Assembly: GCA_017941345.1 (NCBI GenBank)
Contig: JAGAWQ010000151.1
Location: 1-36,019 of the forward strand
DNA length: 36,019 bases
From: Prevotella sp.
GTDB taxonomy: Bacteria > Bacteroidota > Bacteroidia > Bacteroidales > Bacteroidaceae
Reading direction: 5' to 3'
Shown here: in pieces, positions 8,214-29,073 of the stretch
How the letters are laid out: the number at the start of each line of letters is the position of its first letter
Numbering within the stretch: the stretch's first letter is position 1
Program-made: the position numbers and the translations under genes
The notes under the pieces: model-generated
The model's database searches: none
What the model saw: only the letters and a program-made list of their open reading frames with translations
What the model was told of the DNA's origin: nothing

Positions 8214-8227
8214 GTAACCATATTTGT

Positions 8228-8240
8228 TGCAAAGTGTCAG
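8228..8240 (+). promoter_or_regulatory. Candidate operator TGCAAAGTGTCAG upstream of trp
   Basis: This 13-mer is identical to 14973-14985 upstream of gltB and lies at almost the same distance from the -7 box (62 nt between the two elements here, 61 there). The core GCAAAGTGTC recurs twice upstream of glnK. I found the core only in these intergenic regions. The binding protein is unknown. Confidence 0.55.
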
Positions 8241-8276
8241 ACATGGAATTTTTTTTGTGAAAAAAGTAAGCAAAAA

Positions 8277-8309
8277 TTTGTTTTTTTCAGCAAAATGTAC
8301 TACTTTTGC
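8277..8309 (+). promoter_or_regulatory. trp operon promoter
   Basis: TTTG at 8277-8280, a 20-nt spacer, then TACTTTTGC at 8301-8309 fit the Bacteroidetes sigma consensus well. The -7 box forms the right arm of a dyad with GCAAAA at 8291-8296. Transcription should begin near 8313-8318, giving a leader of about 190 nt before trpB. Confidence 0.8.
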
Positions 8310-8341
8310 ACCCGAATAGTTATAAAAAGTAGAAAATAGAT

Positions 8342-8398
8342 ATGATTAGAACAGCAAACTTTTGGTGGTGGCAGTGCTCAAGATTCAAAAAATCGTGA
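8342..8398 (+). CDS. trpL: trp leader peptide with three tandem Trp codons
   Basis: An 18-codon ORF, MIRTANFWWWQCSRFKKS, starts about 27 nt after the predicted transcription start and ends at TGA 8396-8398. Codons 8-10 are TGG TGG TGG. The Trp-codon stretch 8364-8372 can pair with 8406-8415 (nine pairs, one bulged G at 8411), which is the position of a 1:2 stem in a classical attenuator. An intrinsic terminator follows at 8442-8473. When charged tRNA-Trp is scarce, a ribosome stalling on the Trp codons would disrupt this stem. A clear competing antiterminator was not resolved by eye. The peptide has no other expected function. No Shine-Dalgarno is visible, which is usual in this phylum. Confidence 0.85.
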   Translation: MIRTANFWWWQCSRFKKS

Positions 8399-8441
8399 GA
8401 AGATAGCCGCGTACCTGTAAGTTTGTAAAAGAGATACTCCG

Positions 8442-8473
8442 GAGGCCTGTCGTTCTTGCGACGGGCCTCTTTT
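8442..8473 (+). terminator. trp attenuator (intrinsic terminator in the leader)
   Basis: Arms 8442-8452 (GAGGCCTGTCG) and 8459-8469 (CGACGGGCCTC) form an 11-bp stem with one G-U pair around a TTCTTG loop, followed by TTTT. It lies after the Trp-rich leader ORF and 32 nt before trpB, so it should act as a conditional terminator for the operon. Confidence 0.85.
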
Positions 8474-8505: not shown

Positions 8506-9711
8506 ATGGGAAATTTTCAAGTTGACAAAAACGGTTTCTACGGTGAGTTCGGAGGCGCGTATGTGCCAGAGATACTCTACAAGTGTGTGCATGACCTGCA
8601 GGAGGCTTATCTGCCAATTGTTGAGAGTGCAGAGTTCAAAGCCGAGTATCATGCGCTGTTGAAGGACTATGTGGGACGGCCCTCACCGCTCTACTATGCC
8701 CGTAGGATGAGCGAGAAGTACGGCTGCCAGCTGTATCTGAAGCGTGAAGACCTGAACCACACGGGCGCTCACAAGATCAACAACACCATCGGACAGATTC
8801 TGCTGGCGAAGCGGATGGGCAAGACGCGCATCATTGCCGAGACGGGAGCCGGACAGCACGGCGTGGCTACGGCAACGGTGTGTGCCCTGATGGACATGAA
8901 GTGTGAGGTATTCATGGGGGCGACAGATGTGGAGCGTCAGCACACCAACGTGGAGCGAATGAAGATGCTGGGTGCCGAGGTGCATCCCGTCCGCACGGGC
9001 AACATGACGCTGAGCGATGCCTGCTCGGAGGCTATCCGCGACTGGTGCTGCCATCCTGCAGACACCTTCTATATCGTAGGTTCGACGATGGGGCCTCATC
9101 CCTATCCCGACCTCGTGGCGAGGATGCAGAGTGTCATCAGCGAGGAGATCAAGTGGCAGTTGGAGGAGCAGGTTGGCCGCGACTATCCTGATTATCTGAT
9201 TGCCTGCATCGGAGGCGGAAGTAACGCTGCTGGCACCATCTATCACTATATGGACGATGAGCGCGTAAAAATTGTGTTGGCTGAAGCTGGCGGACACGGC
9301 TGGGATACCGACTACACCGCAGCTACGATACATCGCGGCACGACGGGAATCCTGCACGGAGCGAAGATGCTGGTGATGCAGGACGAGGACGGACAGATTC
9401 AGGAGGCGTTTACCATCTCCGCAGGTCTCGACTACCCTGGTGTAGGTCCGATGCATTGCAACATGGCGAAGAAGGGTCGTACGCAGGTGCTGAGCATCAA
9501 TGACGACGAGGCCATCTACGGCGGCTACGAGCTGACGCGCATGGAGGGCATCATCCCTGCCATCGAGAGTGCCCACGCCATTGCGGCGCTTTCCAAACTA
9601 AGTTTCAAGAAGGACGATGTGGTGGTGCTGACGGTCAGCGGGCGTGGCGACAAGGATGTGGAGACGTATTTGAAGAATAAAGAAATGGCTAAAGAATATG
9701 GAAATTTTTAA
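8506..9711 (+). CDS. trpB: Tryptophan synthase beta chain
   Basis: A 401-residue PLP enzyme that condenses indole with serine to give tryptophan; it works as the alpha2-beta2 complex with TrpA in the cytoplasm. The N-terminal GEFGGAYVPEIL, the PLP lysine K90 in HTGAHKINN, ETGAGQHGVA, the phosphate-binding GGGSNA and the HRGTTGILHG segment all match TrpB1, and the length is normal. It is the first structural gene of the operon, after the attenuator, and its last 14 nt overlap trpE, which suggests translational coupling. The spacer before it (8476-8505) holds AT-rich repeats of the type TTGATAATTGATAATTAAT that recur elsewhere in the window. Start ATG 8506 gives the family N-terminus. Confidence 0.97.
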   Translation: MGNFQVDKNGFYGEFGGAYVPEILYKCVHDLQEAYLPIVESAEFKAEYHALLKDYVGRPSPLYYARRMSEKYGCQLYLKREDLNHTGAHKINNTIGQILLAKRMGKTRIIAETGAGQHGVATATVCALMDMKCEVFMGATDVERQHTNVERMKMLGAEVHPVRTGNMTLSDACSEAIRDWCCHPADTFYIVGSTMGPHPYPDLVARMQSVISEEIKWQLEEQVGRDYPDYLIACIGGGSNAAGTIYHYMDDERVKIVLAEAGGHGWDTDYTAATIHRGTTGILHGAKMLVMQDEDGQIQEAFTISAGLDYPGVGPMHCNMAKKGRTQVLSINDDEAIYGGYELTRMEGIIPAIESAHAIAALSKLSFKKDDVVVLTVSGRGDKDVETYLKNKEMAKEYGNF

Positions 9712-23356: not shown

Positions 23357-23373
23357 CTCCAAGCCTTTTTTTT
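23342..23373 (+). terminator. Intrinsic terminator after dapL
   Basis: GCTTGGAG (23342-23349) and CTCCAAGC (23357-23364) form a perfect 8-bp stem around CAAATAA, followed by C and eight T. The dapL stop codon is in the loop, so the last codons are part of the stem. Confidence 0.93.
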
Positions 23374-23442
23374 ATTTTATCAAGAACATCTCCCCTTGGA
23401 TTTACACCGTTTCCCCGATTAACGGGGCAACTCAAATGTGTG

Positions 23443-23465
23443 CGATAACAATTTGCGACGAAATG
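23443..23465 (+). promoter_or_regulatory. Conserved upstream block shared with glnN
   Basis: This 23-nt block matches 26087-26109 upstream of glnN at 19 positions (blocks CGATAACA, TTG and ACGAAATG conserved). A related AATAACAAATTGTAAC lies in the glnK leader at about 23610-23625. Probable regulatory site or conserved element; the binding factor is unknown. Confidence 0.5.
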
Positions 23466-23522
23466 ATAGGTTTCAAGTGCAAAGTGTCATCAAAATGCAA
23501 GTAAAGTATGTCTTTTAATTTA

Positions 23523-23560
23523 CGTTTTGTTATTTGTTTACGTTTTTAACAAACAAAACG
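23523..23560 (+). promoter_or_regulatory. Inverted repeat containing the 19-mer shared with glnN
   Basis: CGTTTTGTT (23523-23531) and AACAAAACG (23552-23560) form a perfect 9-bp inverted repeat. The right part, GTTTTTAACAAACAAAACG (23542-23560), is identical to 26186-26204 upstream of glnN. It sits 34 nt before the -7 box (35 nt at glnN), a suitable place for an activator. Confidence 0.65.
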
Positions 23561-23583
23561 AAATGGATGTAAGAAATAATCAA

Positions 23584-23603
23584 GCAAAGTGTCGTAACTT
23601 TGC
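23584..23603 (+). promoter_or_regulatory. glnK-amtB promoter core
   Basis: TAACTTTGC (23595-23603) is a good -7 box. The preceding GCAAAGT forms a perfect 7-bp dyad with ACTTTGC. No TTTG is seen at the -33 position, suggesting dependence on an activator. Two GCAAAGTGTC boxes occur, at 23479-23488 and 23584-23593. Confidence 0.7.
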
Positions 23604-23668
23604 ATCGTGAAATAACAAATTGTAACCCAACGAGAGGGTTTAGTATTAATTTAATAAGGTATTAAGGT

Positions 23669-24016
23669 ATGAAAAAGATTGAAGCAATTATCCGCAAGAC
23701 GAAGTTCGAGGAGGTGAAAGCTGCTTTGCTGTCATCCGACATCGACTGGTTTGAGTACCACGACGTGCACGGCATAGGCCAGAGCCGTCAGGAGCGTATA
23801 TATCGTGGCGTCCAGTATTCTACCGATGTCATCGAACGTGTAGCCATCACCATCGTATGCCGCGACATCATTGTCGACCCGACGGTGAAGGTGATTCTAA
23901 AGGTGGCCCATACAGGTGAAGTAGGCGACGGTCGCATCTTCGTGAGTGACGTGATTGACACGTGGTCTATTCGTACAGGCGAAAACGGTGACACCGTACT
24001 GAGAGACAAAAAGTAA
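23669..24016 (+). CDS. glnK: P-II nitrogen regulatory protein
   Basis: A 115-residue PII protein. PII trimers sense 2-oxoglutarate and ATP/ADP and control ammonium transport by binding AmtB. Visible features are MKKIEAIIRKTKFEEVKAAL, a T-loop GIGQSRQERIYRGVQY with Tyr50 at the position of the uridylylated Tyr51, the B-loop HTGEVGDGRIFV and the C-loop IRTGE. The T-loop is one residue shorter than in E. coli GlnB, and VIERV replaces the usual FLPKV. The gene lies 30 nt before amtB, the standard GlnK-AmtB arrangement. The upstream region (23357-23668, 312 nt) carries the terminator, the shared boxes and the promoter, plus a small AACCC/GGGTT hairpin at 23624-23640. Confidence 0.95.
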   Translation: MKKIEAIIRKTKFEEVKAALLSSDIDWFEYHDVHGIGQSRQERIYRGVQYSTDVIERVAITIVCRDIIVDPTVKVILKVAHTGEVGDGRIFVSDVIDTWSIRTGENGDTVLRDKK

Positions 24017-24046
24017 AAAGGTAAAATAGTAAAAAGGTAAAAGGTT

Positions 24047-25300
24047 ATGAACGAAATAGGATTATCACTCGATACTGTATGGATGCTATTGGCAGCCATG
24101 TTGGTTTTCTGGATGCAGCCGGGCTTTGCGCTGTGTGAGGCAGGTTTTACACGTAGCAAGAACACAGCGAATATCCTGATGAAGAACTTTGTCGACTTTA
24201 TGTTCGGCTCGTTGTTGTTCTTCTTCCTCGGCTTCGGATTTATGTTCGGCAGCGACGGCGCAGGATTCATTGGTATGCCCAACTGGGGCGACCTGAGTTT
24301 CTACAAGGGCGACTTGCCCGTAGAGGGTTTCTTGATTTTCGAGACAGTATTCTGTGCCACCTCTGCCACCATCGTCAGCGGTGCAATGGCTGAGCGCACG
24401 AAGTTCTCGATGTACTTGATTTATAGTGCAGTCATCTCTTTGTTCATCTACCCGATTGAGGGTCACTGGACGTGGGGCGGCGGCTGGCTCTGCAACGATG
24501 CTGCCGACGGGTTTATGATGACGATATTTGGTGATGTGTTCCACGACTTTGCGGGTTCTGCCATCGTGCATAGTGTGGGTGGTGTGCTGGCTCTGATTGG
24601 TGCTTTGGCACTGGGGCCTCGTATCGGTAAGTATGGCAATGACGGCAAGAGTCGTGCCATTCCCGGTCACAATCTCGCGATGGCTGCGCTGGGTGTCTTC
24701 ATCCTCTGGCTCGGTTGGTTTGGCTTCAACCCCGGTTCACAGTTGGCCGCCTCGGGTGAGGTGAATCGCATCGCCATCTCGCACGTATTCCTGACGACAA
24801 ACCTCGCCGCTGCGGCAGGTGGTGTCGCTACGATGTTCCTCACCTATATCAAGTACGGTAAGCCGTCACTCTCACTCACCTTGAACGGTGTGCTGGCAGG
24901 TTTGGTAGGCATCACCGCAGGTTGCGACCTTGTATCACCTGTTGGAGCCATCATCATTGGGCTGGTATGTGGTATCGTGTTGGTTTATGCCATAGAGTTT
25001 ATTGACCACCGTCTGCATATCGACGATCCCGTTGGTGCCTCGTCTGTGCATGGTGTCTGCGGTATCTTAGGTACGCTGATGACGGGTCTGCTGTCTACTT
25101 CTAATGGTGCGTTCTATGGTCATGGCTGGGGATTCTTCGGTGCTGAGTGCTTCGGCATCCTGGTCATCGACCTCTGGGCTGCTGCCTGTGGTTTCGCCCT
25201 GTTCTACGGCATCAAGAAGCTGCATGGCCTGCGTGTCGACAAGCGCATCGAAGAAGAGGGTCTCGATGTGTATGAGCACGGAGAATTGTGCTACAACTAA
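24047..25300 (+). CDS. amtB: Ammonium transporter
   Basis: A 417-residue polytopic inner-membrane channel for ammonium. Eleven hydrophobic segments are apparent, beginning with TVWMLLAAMLVFWMQPGFALCEAG. The key residues are Asp167 and His175 in FHDFAGSAIVHSVGG and His335 in SVHGVCGILG; these correspond to Asp160, His168 and His318 of E. coli AmtB. There is no cleavable signal peptide, as in some family members. It follows glnK closely; the spacer consists of AAAAGGTAAAAT-type repeats. A porin gene begins 18 nt after it, so glnK-amtB-porin looks like one operon for ammonium capture. Confidence 0.96.
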   Translation: MNEIGLSLDTVWMLLAAMLVFWMQPGFALCEAGFTRSKNTANILMKNFVDFMFGSLLFFFLGFGFMFGSDGAGFIGMPNWGDLSFYKGDLPVEGFLIFETVFCATSATIVSGAMAERTKFSMYLIYSAVISLFIYPIEGHWTWGGGWLCNDAADGFMMTIFGDVFHDFAGSAIVHSVGGVLALIGALALGPRIGKYGNDGKSRAIPGHNLAMAALGVFILWLGWFGFNPGSQLAASGEVNRIAISHVFLTTNLAAAAGGVATMFLTYIKYGKPSLSLTLNGVLAGLVGITAGCDLVSPVGAIIIGLVCGIVLVYAIEFIDHRLHIDDPVGASSVHGVCGILGTLMTGLLSTSNGAFYGHGWGFFGAECFGILVIDLWAAACGFALFYGIKKLHGLRVDKRIEEEGLDVYEHGELCYN

Positions 25301-25318
25301 AAGTAAAAAAGTAAAGGT

Positions 25319-26023
25319 ATGAAAAAGATTGTTTTATTTGCAATGAGTGTGCTGAGCGGTTTTGCCGCGCAGGCCCAAGATATCGTGGAAACAACGGTAG
25401 CAGCCGATTTCGTTAGTAGTTATATCTGGCGCGGTCAGGACTTGGGAAGTGCTGCTGTTCAGCCGACGCTGGGCGTAGAGTATAAAGGTCTGTCGCTGAC
25501 TGCGTGGGGCAGCTATGGACTAGTGAACACCGCCGACACGAAGGAGTTTGACCTGACGCTGGCTTACACCACGGGAGGCTTCAATATCGGCGTCACAGAC
25601 TATTGGTTCAGTGCAGGACTTGATCCGGATGGAAGATATTTCAAGTACGACGCCCACGGCACAAACCACATATTCGAGGCAAACATCGGCTACGACTTCG
25701 GTCCTCTGAGCCTGCAATGGTTCACCAACTTCGCTGGCAACGATGGCACCAATAAAGACGACAAGCGGGCCTATAGCAGTTACTTCGAAGCAGTTGTCCC
25801 CTTCAGCCTTGCTGGCATCGCATGGACTGCTACGGCCGCTGCCGTCCCTTGGGCCACCACCTCCTATGGCACTACGGGCTTTGCCGTCACCAACCTGTCA
25901 CTGAAAGCCACCAAGGACATCAAGGTGACCGACACATTCTCGATACCCGTCTTCGGACAGATTGTTGGCAACCCTTGTTCACAGAAAGCCTACCTGGTCT
26001 TTGGGTTTACGCTGCAACCCTAA
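25319..26023 (+). CDS. Outer-membrane beta-barrel protein (TorF/Gcw_chp-like putative porin)
   Basis: A 234-residue exported protein: signal peptide MKKIVLFAMSVLSGFAAQAQ, then alternating aromatic and polar strands (VSSYIWRGQDLGSAAVQPTLGVEYKG, LTAWGSYGLVN, FDLTLAYTTGGFNIGVTDYW, FEANIGYDFGPLSLQWFTNF) and a terminal YLVFGFTLQP barrel strand. SYIWRGQ is characteristic of the Gcw_chp/TorF putative porins. It lies 18 nt after amtB and is followed by a terminator hairpin, so it is the last gene of the glnK-amtB operon. The context suggests a channel letting ammonium or small nitrogen compounds through the outer membrane; that role is inferred. Confidence 0.8.
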   Translation: MKKIVLFAMSVLSGFAAQAQDIVETTVAADFVSSYIWRGQDLGSAAVQPTLGVEYKGLSLTAWGSYGLVNTADTKEFDLTLAYTTGGFNIGVTDYWFSAGLDPDGRYFKYDAHGTNHIFEANIGYDFGPLSLQWFTNFAGNDGTNKDDKRAYSSYFEAVVPFSLAGIAWTATAAAVPWATTSYGTTGFAVTNLSLKATKDIKVTDTFSIPVFGQIVGNPCSQKAYLVFGFTLQP

Positions 26024-26037
26024 TCTTACAGGTACGC

Positions 26038-26070
26038 ATCCTCCCCTTGTTACGATGACAGGGGGAGGAT
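26038..26070 (+). terminator. Hairpin after the glnK-amtB-porin operon
   Basis: Arms 26038-26050 (ATCCTCCCCTTGT) and 26058-26070 (ACAGGGGGAGGAT) make a 13-bp stem with one G-T pair. The following TATTCAATT is only a weak U-tract, so termination efficiency is uncertain. Confidence 0.7.
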
Positions 26071-26086
26071 TATTCAATTGTGTGTT

Positions 26087-26109
26087 CGATAACAGATTGT
26101 AACGAAATG
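26087..26109 (+). promoter_or_regulatory. Conserved upstream block shared with glnK
   Basis: Nineteen of 23 positions match 23443-23465. In both places the block is the first recognisable element after the terminator of the preceding unit and lies more than 100 nt before the -7 box. Confidence 0.5.
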
Positions 26110-26185
26110 GCCGTTATTATGAGCAAATTGATAGCAAATAGAAACGATAAATACTTATTTGCTTTACAAAATGATAGTTGATAAT

Positions 26186-26204
26186 GTTTTTAACAAACAA
26201 AACG
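26186..26204 (+). promoter_or_regulatory. 19-mer shared with glnK (candidate activator site)
   Basis: GTTTTTAACAAACAAAACG is identical to 23542-23560 and lies 35 nt before the glnN -7 box. Just upstream is another inverted repeat, AGCAAATA (26133-26140) and TATTTGCT (26156-26163). Confidence 0.65.
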
Positions 26205-26226
26205 TAAGCAAAATGCGATATTATTC

Positions 26227-26271
26227 TGTCAATTTGTAGTAACTTTGCATCGTGATTCAAGCAAATTGACA
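26227..26271 (+). promoter_or_regulatory. glnN promoter flanked by a 10-bp inverted repeat
   Basis: The -7 box TAACTTTGC is at 26240-26248, and the following ATCGTGA matches the glnK promoter. Perfect inverted arms TGTCAATTTG (26227-26236) and CAAATTGACA (26262-26271) bracket the box, an arrangement that could serve repression or an RNA hairpin. There is no clear -33 TTTG. Confidence 0.65.
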
Positions 26272-26295
26272 TTTCAAAATTAAATAGGTAACAAT

Positions 26296-28545
26296 ATGGA
26301 AGCATTAAGATTTCAGGTTGTCGGTGAGGCCTTCAAGAAGAAGCCACTCGACGTAAAAGCACCCAATGAAAGGCTACGGGTAGGCGAGCAAAGCTCGGGA
26401 ATGAGGCCTTACGAGTATTTTGGCAAGAAGGTCTTCAACCGTGAGAAGATGTACAAGTACCTGCCCAAGCAGGTCTATGAGAAGATGATAGACGTGATGG
26501 ATAACGGAGCCCGTCTCGACCGTGACATCGCTGACGCTGTAGCTGCCGGTATGAAGCAGTGGGCTGTAGAGAATGGTGTCACCCACTATACCCACTGGTT
26601 CCAGCCGCTGACCGAGGGAACAGCCGAGAAGCACGACTCATTTATCGAGCATGACGGCAAGGGCGGTATGGTGGAGGAGTTCACCGGCAAGCTGCTCGTT
26701 CAGCAGGAGCCAGACGCCTCGTCGTTCCCTTCTGGTGGTATCCGCTCCACCTTCGAGGCCCGTGGCTACTCTGCATGGGACCCCACATCACCTGTGTTTA
26801 TCATCGACGATACCCTGTGTATTCCCACCGTATTTATATCGTATAGTGGTGAGGCCCTTGACTATAAGGCTCCTCTGCTCCGTGCCTTGCATGCTGTCAA
26901 CGTGGCTGCTACGGAGGTGTGCCATTACTTCGACCCCAGCGTGAAGAAGGTGACTTCTAACCTCGGTTGGGAACAGGAGTACTTCCTTGTCGACGAGGGA
27001 TTGTATGCTGCCCGTCCTGACTTGCTACTGACAGGTCGCACCCTGATGGGACACGACTCTGCCAAGAACCAGCAGATGGACGACCACTACTTTGGCAGCA
27101 TCCCTGAGCGTGTGGCTGCCTTTATGCGCGACCTGGAGATTCAGGCGCTGGAGTTGGGTGTTCCCTGTAAGACGCGCCACAACGAGGTGGCTCCCAACCA
27201 GTTTGAGCTGGCTCCTATCTTCGAGGAGACCAACCTGGCTGTCGACCACAACATGATGCTGATGTCGCTGATGAAGCGTGTGGCCCGCAAGCACGGCTTC
27301 CGTGTGCTGCTCCATGAAAAGCCTTTTGCAGGCATCAACGGTAGCGGTAAGCACAACAACTGGAGCCTGTCTACCGACAACGGCATTCTGCTGCATGCTC
27401 CCGGCAAGACGGCGGAGCAGAACCTGCGCTTTGCCACGTTTATCGTAGAGACGCTTATGGGTGTCTATCGTCACAACGGACTGTTGAAAGCCTCTATTAT
27501 GAGTGCCACCAACGCCCACCGTCTGGGTGCCAACGAGGCTCCTCCTGCCATCATCAGCTCGTTCCTTGGCAAACAGCTCAGCGAACTGCTCGACCATATC
27601 GAGAAAGCTGACAAGGACAATATTTTCTCGATGGACGGCAAGCAGGGCATGAAGATGGACATCCCTGAGATTCCTGAACTGCTCATCGATAACACCGACC
27701 GCAACCGCACGTCACCCTTCGCCTTCACCGGCAACCGCTTTGAGTTCCGCGCTGTAGGCAGCGAGGCTAACTGTGCCAGTGCCATGATTGCCTTGAATAG
27801 TGCCGTAGCAGAAGCCCTTGTCAGCTTCAAGAAGCGTGTGGATGCCAAGATTCCTGAGTACGAGAAAAAGCTGGCAGGTACTGAGCACAGCGCCACGTTC
27901 CATGCCATCATCGACGTGCTGCGTGAGGATATCAAGACCTGCAAGCCCATCCGCTTCGACGGCAATGGCTACTCTGACGAGTGGGTATTGGAGGCTGCCA
28001 AGCGTGGTCTCGACGTCGAGAAGTCATGCCCGAAAATCTTTGAGCGCTACCTCGACGAGGAGAGCATTCAGATGTTCGAGAGCCTGGGTGTGATGACGAA
28101 GAAAGAGCTCGAAGCCCGCAACGAGGTGAAGTGGGAGACCTACACGAAGAAGATTCAGATAGAGGCCCGTGTGCTGGGCGACCTCTCGATGAACCATATC
28201 ATCCCCGTGGCCACCCGCTATCAGAGTCAACTGTTGAAGAACGTCGAAAATATGGCATCCGTATTCTCCGTCGACAAGGCTGAGAAGCTGAACGCCCGTA
28301 ACATCAAGATTATCGAGGAGATTGCTGAGCGTACCTCAGCCATCGAGAAGGGTGTCGAAGAACTGGTCAATGCCCGCAAGTTGGCCAACAAGATTGGCGA
28401 CGAGCACGACAAGGCCATTGCCTACCACAATACCGTTGAGCCAAAGCTCGATGAGATACGTTACGAGATTGACAAGCTGGAGCTCATCGTCGACGACGCT
28501 CTGTGGCCACTGCCCAAATATCGTGAGCTGCTATTCATAAGATAA
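26296..28545 (+). CDS. glnN: Glutamine synthetase type III
   Basis: A 749-residue GSIII, the large dodecameric glutamine synthetase typical of Bacteroidetes; it makes glutamine from glutamate, ammonia and ATP in the cytoplasm. The GSIII-specific N-terminus (NERLRVGEQSSGMRPYEYFGKKVFN, THYTHWFQPLTEGTAEKHDSF) is present. Active-site elements are GWEQEYFLVD (Glu226, Glu228), ARHNEV-type KTRHNEVAPNQFE, NGSGKHNNWS and NRTSPFAFTGNRFEFRAVGS (Glu483, Arg485). The C-terminal helical extension (AERTSAIEKGVEELVNARKLAN) is complete. It is a single-gene unit between its own promoter and terminator, and is probably induced with glnK-amtB under nitrogen limitation, as judged from the shared promoter elements. 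Confidence 0.97.
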   Translation: MEALRFQVVGEAFKKKPLDVKAPNERLRVGEQSSGMRPYEYFGKKVFNREKMYKYLPKQVYEKMIDVMDNGARLDRDIADAVAAGMKQWAVENGVTHYTHWFQPLTEGTAEKHDSFIEHDGKGGMVEEFTGKLLVQQEPDASSFPSGGIRSTFEARGYSAWDPTSPVFIIDDTLCIPTVFISYSGEALDYKAPLLRALHAVNVAATEVCHYFDPSVKKVTSNLGWEQEYFLVDEGLYAARPDLLLTGRTLMGHDSAKNQQMDDHYFGSIPERVAAFMRDLEIQALELGVPCKTRHNEVAPNQFELAPIFEETNLAVDHNMMLMSLMKRVARKHGFRVLLHEKPFAGINGSGKHNNWSLSTDNGILLHAPGKTAEQNLRFATFIVETLMGVYRHNGLLKASIMSATNAHRLGANEAPPAIISSFLGKQLSELLDHIEKADKDNIFSMDGKQGMKMDIPEIPELLIDNTDRNRTSPFAFTGNRFEFRAVGSEANCASAMIALNSAVAEALVSFKKRVDAKIPEYEKKLAGTEHSATFHAIIDVLREDIKTCKPIRFDGNGYSDEWVLEAAKRGLDVEKSCPKIFERYLDEESIQMFESLGVMTKKELEARNEVKWETYTKKIQIEARVLGDLSMNHIIPVATRYQSQLLKNVENMASVFSVDKAEKLNARNIKIIEEIAERTSAIEKGVEELVNARKLANKIGDEHDKAIAYHNTVEPKLDEIRYEIDKLELIVDDALWPLPKYRELLFIR

Positions 28546-28575: not shown

Positions 28576-28606
28576 GGAACCCGAAGCTGTGACAGTCTCG
28601 GGTTCC
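28576..28606 (+). terminator. Hairpin between convergent glnN and lrp
   Basis: GGAACCCGA (28576-28584) and TCGGGTTCC (28598-28606) form a perfect 9-bp stem with a 13-nt loop, followed by TATATGTTTAG. The stem can form in RNA from either strand and ends at the lrp stop codon, so it may serve both genes. Confidence 0.75.
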
Positions 28607-29073
28607 TATATGTTTAGTCCGTAGCTCTGTTTCACTTCACTCATCACAAAAGTACTCTCAATAGAGGCCAGGTTCTCAATCTCCCCTAATTTATTGAGTA
28701 CAAACTCCTGGTATTGCTTCATGTCACGTGCACGTACCTTTAATAGATAGTCGTATGCACCTGAGGTGTTGTAGCACTCTGTCACCTCCGGAATACGCAT
28801 GATTCGCCGCGAAAAGGCATCTGCTATCTCGTGGTTGATTTGCTTCAGTTTCACCTTACAGTATACCTGCAAGCCAAGATTTAGCTTCTCTGGGTCCAGT
28901 ACTGCCACATACTTCTTAATATATCCTTTCTTTTCCAACCGTTTCTGGCGTTCAAACACGGGCGTTGGAGTCAGATGGACGGCGTCAGCCAACTCTTTTG
29001 TGGTCAATTTGGCATTTTTTTGCAGCGTTTTCAGTATCTGCAGGTCGATTTCGTCTAAGATTTCTGCCATCAT
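28606..29073 (-). CDS. Lrp/AsnC-family transcriptional regulator
   Basis: A 155-residue regulator. Residues 5-65 hold the AsnC helix-turn-helix (ILDEIDLQILKTLQKNAKLTTKELADAVHLTPTPVFERQKRLEKKGYI). Residues 75-150 form the RAM ligand-binding domain (LQVYCKVKLK, ECYNTSGAYDYLLKVRARDM, STFVMSEVK). Such proteins form octamers that respond to amino acids. It is convergent with glnN and divergent from metY, with facing promoters in the 180-nt spacer. Regulation of metY or of the nitrogen genes is plausible from position but unproven. Two adjacent ATGs are possible starts. Confidence 0.92.
   Translation of the reverse strand: MMAEILDEIDLQILKTLQKNAKLTTKELADAVHLTPTPVFERQKRLEKKGYIKKYVAVLDPEKLNLGLQVYCKVKLKQINHEIADAFSRRIMRIPEVTECYNTSGAYDYLLKVRARDMKQYQEFVLNKLGEIENLASIESTFVMSEVKQSYGLNI

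Follow-up and report, generated by a model that had tools for sequence, protein, structure and literature searches.

Phased 13-bp palindromes at the glnK-amtB and glnN promoters of a Prevotella sp.: a predicted operator array for an AsnC-like regulator

The window, by which we mean the whole stretch of DNA analysed (36,019 nucleotides of a Prevotella sp. contig, forward strand), carries in order gltB (from 15094), gltD, dapF, dapL, glnK, amtB, a gene for a 234-amino acid protein, glnN and, on the opposite strand, an Lrp-like gene. The following genes and promoter elements are central to the analysis:

23669–24016, + strand: glnK (PII), Pfam PF00543
24047–25300, + strand: amtB, Pfam PF00909
25319–26023: 234-amino acid protein, between amtB and glnN
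26296–28545, + strand: glnN, type III glutamine synthetase (name from the initial annotation; NCBIfam glutamine synthetase matches are weak and below the cut-off)
28606–29073, − strand: Lrp-like regulator gene adjoining glnN, disfavoured below as the regulator
23595–23602, + strand: −7 box TAACTTTG of the glnK-amtB promoter, from sequence
26240–26247, + strand: −7 box TAACTTTG of the glnN promoter, from sequence

We take the last two elements to be −7 boxes on the basis of the Bacteroidetes −7 consensus. Homologues of glnN were present in 197 of 201 genomes of the family. The 234-amino acid protein matched no Pfam or NCBIfam model, and also adjoins amtB in many relatives. It is probably the counterpart of PRU_1977, which in P. 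ruminicola is 58-fold ammonium-responsive according to the accessible part of the source (PMC5552732).

The initial annotation had proposed that the glnK-amtB and glnN promoters share a nitrogen-regulon architecture, and the elements it described are present. The 19-mer GTTTTTAACAAACAAAACG occurs exactly at 23542, upstream of glnK, and at 26186, upstream of glnN; TAACTTTGCATCGTGA stands at both promoters (23595 and 26240); the two 23-nt blocks, which start at 23443 and 26087, are identical at 19 of 23 positions, as counted by eye; and the 19-mer precedes the −7 box by 34 nt at glnK and 35 nt at glnN. The longest string common to the two upstream regions is the 19-mer itself, at 19 nt. In 2000 dinucleotide-preserving shuffled pairs the longest common string was 15 nt, reached once, indicating that the sharing is above chance. 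Two exact copies of the 19-mer were found in the genome (2.05 Mb; the assembly is ∼60% complete). Allowing three mismatches added two more, and a backwards-pattern control likewise gave two.

The initial annotation had missed a palindrome, its phased copies and a perfect copy downstream of the promoter, at 23613–23625. The proposed operator is a 13-bp palindrome, TNACA-N3-TGTNA, of which the window copies match 5 to 8 of the 8 key bases. With the −7 box alone as anchor and its T taken as position 0, copies occur in both promoters at eight positions, about −146, −136, −115, −104, −72, −41, −10 and +22. The successive spacings are 10–11, 21, 11, 31–32, 31, 31 and 31–32 bp, all near whole helical turns. 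The individual sites, with the number of matching key bases, are as follows:

23446–23458, + strand: glnK site −146, TAACAATTTGCGA, 7/8, inside the 23-nt block; the offset recurs in genus promoters
23456–23468, + strand: glnK site −136, 5/8, sharing 3 bases with site −146
23477–23489, + strand: glnK site −115, GTGCAAAGTGTCA, 6/8
23488–23500, + strand: glnK site −104, 5/8
23520–23532, + strand: glnK site −72, TTACGTTTTGTTA, 7/8
23542–23560, + strand: 19-mer at glnK, comprising conserved TTTTAACAA and most of site −41 (23551–23563, 5/8)
23582–23594, + strand: glnK site −10, AAGCAAAGTGTCG, 5/8, abutting the −7 box
23613–23625, + strand: glnK site +21, TAACAAATTGTAA, 8/8, in the presumed 5′ untranslated region
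26090–26102, + strand: glnN site −147, TAACAGATTGTAA, 8/8
26100–26112, + strand: glnN site −137, 5/8
26121–26133, + strand: glnN site −116, 5/8
26132–26144, + strand: glnN site −105, 5/8
26164–26176, + strand: glnN site −73, TTACAAAATGATA, 7/8
26186–26204, + strand: second copy of the 19-mer, at glnN, with most of site −42 (26195–26207, 6/8)
26227–26239, + strand: glnN site −10, TGTCAATTTGTAG, 6/8
26259–26271, + strand: glnN site +22, AAGCAAATTGACA, 5/8

The lattice scores of the glnK and glnN promoters were 48 and 47, respectively, against means of 27.4 and 28.4 and maxima of 38 and 39 in 5000 shuffles. Of 121 positions tried when the lattice was slid along the sequence, the true phase shared the top rank with one other. 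In each window promoter, four of the sites match just 5 of the 8 key bases. The 23-nt block holds one palindrome site and the greater part of another, weaker site. The 19-mer, which had been read as a single operator, is instead the −41 site plus the conserved TTTTAACAA upstream of it, within an eight-site array that reaches +22. This TTTTAACAA element, at −53 to −44 and just 5′ of the −41 site, is conserved in the window glnK promoter and in genus promoters and lies outside the palindrome pattern; it is possibly an upstream RNA polymerase contact. We also considered, and rejected, one inverted repeat with the 19-mer at its centre: glnN lacks this repeat, and what would be its left arm, near 23523, is in fact the −72 site.

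To follow these elements through the genus, the DNA of 23357–26295 was searched against 398 genomes, of which 333 matched. We extracted 89 glnK and 13 glnN upstream regions from 90 loci (L145–L234, L145 being the window). Approximately half of these keep a block of the form TTTACAnnnTGTCA, ∼8 nt, TTTTAACAAwCAAAATGAAAG, ∼20 nt, CAAAATGTCG-TAnnTTTGC, with fixed geometry, the start of the 23-nt motif lying 53–54 nt from the −7 box. The common architecture is thus kept in relatives at a fixed distance from the −7 box. The exact palindrome TNACAN3TGTNA was present in 66 of the 102 genus upstream regions, window included, compared with a mean of 0.9 and a maximum of 4 in 100 shuffles. Conservation of the 19-mer at orthologues, the footprinting that the initial annotation had called for, was found in a degenerate form: the core CAAA.[TC]G occurs at −41/−42 in 49 of 92 genus promoters. 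Over the same 92 promoters, this core peaks at +22 (24 occurrences), −10 (44), −41 (37), −72 (21), −104 (14), −115 (32) and −136 (11). The commonest distances between pairs of cores were 31 (46 pairs) and 32 bp (35 pairs), the mean being 2.6 pairs per distance. The best conserved member of the array is site −72, which matches at least 6 of 8 key bases in 78 of 93 genus promoters. In the genus site at −73, positions 3–5 and 9–10 are conserved above 90%, and the three central bases are a mixture of A, T, C and G. Promoters of glnK and glnN in other genera of the family had little in common with these.

These data bear on the earlier proposal that the missing −33 contacts are replaced by a single activator at the 19-mer. 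The identity of the 19-mer in two promoters of one genome is consistent with such an activator, as is the conservation of TTTTAACAA-CAAAATG in genus promoters, 53–54 nt before the −7 box. The window promoters do lack a −33 box, as had been claimed: in the 26 nt examined before each −7 box there is no −33-like TTG, and the lone TTG in these stretches lies in the glnN promoter, 5–7 nt ahead of the −7 box. However, a TTG is retained at the −33 position (−25 to −19) in 35 of 93 genus glnK/glnN promoters, and the palindrome recurs at seven other phased offsets, including downstream of the promoter. Sites over and downstream of the −7 box are a poor fit to a simple activator of this kind, so the proposal is unsupported as it was stated. 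We consider a single activator improbable as the whole explanation. At best, replacement of −33 contacts would be part of the control, and repression or mixed control is no less likely than single activation.

To define the regulon, we built a sequence-only profile, R1, of 118 positions (−86 to +31) from 46 glnK/glnN promoters. Weak R1 matches are ordinary promoters because the profile includes the −7 box. The top matches in the Prevotella sp. genome were glnN (71.6 bits), glnK (61.2 bits), trpB (40.2 bits) and pyrG (35.8 bits), followed by a sigma-factor-like gene (30.4 bits; start as judged here), gltB (29.8 bits) and then matches of 24.6 bits or less. Two of these lie elsewhere in the window:

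8221–8330, + strand: incomplete array upstream of the trp operon, whose trpB is at 8506; strongest site 8227–8239, 7/8; R1 40.2 bits
14973–15064, + strand: gltB promoter; R1 29.8 bits

The lattice at trpB is marginal, its score of 33 being reached by 145 of 5000 shuffles, and that at gltB is non-significant in the window, its score of 28 being reached by 2010 of 5000.

R1 was then applied to 16 hand-picked relatives, a match of 34 bits or more being counted as strong. The 42 strong matches comprised 10 glnK, 7 glnN, 4 amt2, 3 pyrG, 2 asnB, 6 dapF, 6 gltB, 2 trpB, one PII paralogue and one ABC ATPase. Of the 17 matches at glnK/glnN, many belong to the training set or are close to it, and these are no proof alone. 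Outside glnK/glnN, 24 of the 25 strong matches precede nitrogen or amino-acid genes; the sole exception is the ABC ATPase (genome G543, 34.1 bits), and below ∼32 bits other genes mix in. A strong match at a nitrogen gene was present in 13 of the 16 genomes; G543, G315 and G117 had none of 34 bits or more. According to Pfam, the N-terminal fragments named pyrG, dapF, gltB and PII bear out those names. The asnB fragments showed glutamine-amidotransferase domains only, and the trpB fragments a PALP match only, below the cut-off, while the TrpB of the window passes the trpB model. The name amt2, for a second amt, was given because neighbouring copies are ∼30% similar to AmtB by tblastn; the 70-residue amt2 N-terminus had no Pfam match.

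Beyond these relatives, the array was found in Segatella copri iA622 at glnK (51.6 bits) and upstream of an asnB-like gene for a 595-amino acid protein (36.9 bits); both promoters have sites near −135, −103, −71, −41 and +22. Other Bacteroidales gave weak R1 matches of 19.9–26.6 bits, and the named Bacteroides records L372, L377, L379 and L380 gave no R1 match at E 1e-3.

An independent test of the lattice was made in the region −200 to −90, upstream of the reach of R1, in 29 promoters other than those of glnK/glnN. These were 23 of the 24 non-training strong matches at nitrogen genes (gltB at G546:C63 was left out), three weaker ones (pyrG at L315 and gltB at L332 and L335, 31.5–32.1 bits) and three from the Prevotella sp. 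genome (pyrG, trpB and gltB). Of the 30 sites matching at least 7 of 8 key bases, 24 fell within one base of −146, −136, −115 or −104, compared with 3.3 expected. Three hundred random offset sets gave a mean of 3.4 and a maximum of 20 of 30, and 300 shuffled-sequence sets gave a mean of 0.32 on-lattice sites and a maximum of 3. With all eight offsets, 53 of 61 sites in the same promoters were on the lattice versus 6.0 expected, a figure to which R1 contributed by helping to pick the promoters. Because the 29 promoters were chosen with R1, independence can be claimed for the four upstream offsets but not for the sites at −72, −41, −10 and +22. A control set of 799 TAnnTTTGC boxes proved to be contaminated, because the loci it was drawn from include promoters of the regulon: it showed enrichment at lattice offsets, with values such as 0.15 at −72 and 0.12 at −10 where the mean was 0.012. 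Within-sequence controls were used in its place.

The regulon resembles the ammonium response of P. ruminicola 23, in which, according to the accessible part of the report, amtB, glnK, asnB, glnN, dapF, gltB, gltD and pyrG changed at least 4-fold, with glnK and amtB changed 46- and 69-fold, respectively (PMC5552732). This list overlaps the genes found with R1. The accessible text states the direction both ways, as induction by limitation and as induction by excess, and contains no mention of Lrp, AsnC, a promoter or a transcription factor (PMC5552732). The nitrogen genes gdhA, glnA, purN and purT of that paper were not among the annotated R1 matches.

Two other explanations were considered. 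Since the sites are A/T-rich and stand at whole helical turns, they might be phased A-tracts that confer intrinsic curvature or attract a general nucleoid protein. Against this, the TNACA/TGTNA flanks are fixed and the centre is variable, and 24 of the 25 strong matches outside the training genes lie at genes for nitrogen or amino-acid functions. We consider curvature without a specific regulator quite improbable. Another known regulator could also be invoked. GlnR/TnrA recognizes TGTNAN7TNACA, so the half-site TGTNA of the array also occurs within that box; the patterns for Crp/Fnr and NtcA are TGTGAN6TCACA, TTGATN4ATCAA and GTAN8TAC, and sigma-54 promoters carry −24/−12 elements with NtrC boxes. 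However, exact searches of the 102 genus upstream regions with these consensus patterns gave one GlnR/TnrA match (shuffle mean 1.1), two for NtcA (7.6), none for FNR (0.1) and none for CRP, sigma-54 or NtrC. All were at or below chance and were rejected, and control by GlnR/TnrA, NtcA, NtrC with sigma-54, or Crp/Fnr is highly improbable.

The form of the array points to a different family. Lrp/AsnC proteins bind as dimers within octamers to 13-bp palindromes at a 30–31-bp periodicity, and the FL11 consensus is of the 5-3-5 type, ATAAA ATT TTTAT, according to the accessible part of the source (PMC8707732). A 5-3-5 palindrome phased at ∼31 bp fits these proteins. The assembly, at 60% completeness, contains two Lrp/AsnC genes (PF01037). 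One encodes the Lrp-like protein of the window (28606–29073; 123.1 bits with the Lrp model versus 61 with AsnC) and the other lies outside the window (P0001, at G000:C85:2619–3080; 138.2 bits with AsnC versus 65.9 with Lrp); neither reaches the cut-off of its model. The 138.2 bits of P0001 fall below the cut-off of 227 of NCBIfam NF008384, the E. coli AsnC equivalog, and the protein is therefore classed as AsnC-like only. Its closest solved structure is E. coli AsnC (2cg4, E 2.5e-28). All 120 genus genomes gave a match to P0001 at E 1e-3, and 116 did so at E 1e-50 or better.

The upstream regions of the two genes differ in the presence of the site. We examined the promoters of the P0001 orthologues in the best 30 of 120 genomes, 29 of which had a −7 box. 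A site matching at least 7 of 8 key bases stands at +12 in 18 of these 29 (mean 0.08 and maximum 2 in 2000 shuffles), with a weaker site peak at −30. Within 230 nt upstream, such sites precede 20 of these best 30 AsnC-like genes versus none of 16 Lrp-like orthologues; the corresponding numbers of weaker, 6/8 sites were 63 and 20. The AsnC-like promoter scores just 12.0 bits with R1.

The Lrp-like protein has the right fold and its gene adjoins glnN, so it could be the one that binds an Lrp/AsnC-type array. However, its gene lacks the site upstream, and at E 1e-30 no orthologue of it was found in 9 of 25 genomes. Two of these nine, G459 and G389, carry strong arrays (65 and 68 bits) and have close AsnC-like orthologues. 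It is thus an unlikely regulator. As judged from sequence, the best and most likely candidate is the AsnC-like protein at G000:C85:2619–3080. Overall, we favour the interpretation that the phased 13-bp palindromes are an array for an oligomeric Lrp/AsnC-type regulator, most likely this AsnC-like protein, and put its probability at roughly two in three. That some Lrp/AsnC protein, whether AsnC-like or Lrp-like, lies behind the array is more probable still. We file the array under Lrp/AsnC operator arrays on the basis of site form, period, the presence of the protein and the site before its own gene, with binding as the predicted element.

Under the AsnC-like interpretation, in which regulator, ligand and direction of control are all inferred, dimers of one oligomer would occupy successive sites on one face of the helix. 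The oligomer would wrap roughly 170 bp, from about −146 to past the promoter. When nitrogen is scarce, the filled upstream sites might support RNA polymerase at a promoter that has no −33 box. An amino acid-bound form might fill the −10 and +22 sites and so shut the promoter. Asparagine or glutamine would be natural guesses for the ligand, which, like the sign of control, is guessed.

Other elements were observed near these genes. In 17 glnK upstream regions from other genera of the family (g13, g19, g22 and g27; loci L074, L083, L086, L090–L093, L100, L103, L104 and L113–L119), a short reading frame rich in Gln/Asn codons, such as MFIGFKNITTVQLNNNQQQNNQNQNNQVPMVIPFDRSGM, lies up to ∼270 nt before glnK-amtB. 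In 16 of the 17 it is followed, before glnK, by a strong, terminator-like hairpin of 11–12 bp with a T-run, with a possible competing pairing. A loose search of other glnK regions gave shorter or weaker hairpins in 17 of 49. The leader and hairpin are a candidate attenuator that may sense glutamine/asparagine; a literature search, at the level of search results, returned no case of Gln/Asn-leader attenuation at glnK-amtB. The window itself contains a trp leader, the reading frame MIRTANFWWWQCSRFKKS at 8342–8398 with three consecutive Trp codons, and a 13-bp hairpin with a T-run before trpB, at about 8441–8470; read from sequence, this is the layout of a classical trp attenuator. Finally, in L082, L088 and L094–L098 (genus g9 and others) a conserved palindrome, TTGACATATATCAA / TTGATNTATGTCAA, lies between divergent dapF and glnK, ∼70–80 nt before the glnK −7 box, and is Fnr-like by look only.

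A broader proposal is that, in Prevotella-type Bacteroidota, an AsnC-like master regulator of central nitrogen assimilation replaces NtrC, GlnR or NtcA by means of an eight-site, nucleosome-like lattice through the promoter, and that in neighbouring genera its place at the glnK-amtB operon has been taken by ribosome-mediated attenuation, through a leader peptide with Gln/Asn codons. We hold this tentatively and think it somewhat likelier to fail than to stand. If true, glutamine and asparagine status would be sensed for a single operon by two unrelated mechanisms. Bacteroidota are the main ammonium users of the rumen and gut, and the switch of their nitrogen genes has no named regulator in the searchable literature; our searches on Bacteroides and Prevotella, largely at the level of search results in the open literature, returned none. 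For nitrogen control, the present analysis offers one candidate gene along with a site, its fixed geometry and a regulon, the array being found in Segatella copri as well.

Several known systems resemble the proposed one in part. E. coli AsnC responds to asparagine and regulates asnA as well as its own gene. It is the closest solved structure and the best NCBIfam model for P0001; by contrast, P0001 is below the equivalog cut-off and its target set in Prevotella would be central ammonium assimilation. According to the accessible part of the source, Sa-Lrp of Sulfolobus acidocaldarius is a glutamine-responsive, Lrp-like protein that wraps DNA and binds the control regions of gltB, gdhA and glnA (PMC3584215). 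It shares with the proposed system the protein family, the nitrogen-gene targets and the wrapping, but is archaeal and, in that text, uses two A/T-rich sites per gltB promoter without a fixed palindrome. A further parallel is the Lrp-activated gltBDF operon of E. coli, also a nitrogen-assimilation operon. In the accessible text, its three Lrp sites lie at −152, −215 and −246, with intervals of 63 and 31 bp that match the lattice, and their helical phase matters: a 5-bp insertion cuts expression 3–7-fold and one of 10 bp has no effect (PMC1784095). By analogy, the Prevotella array may work like the Lrp nucleoprotein complex at gltBDF, with binding predicted. The two differ in that the gltBDF sites, as described there, lie far upstream with IHF between, whereas the Prevotella array places up to eight sites of another sequence through and past the promoter, and serves many nitrogen genes.
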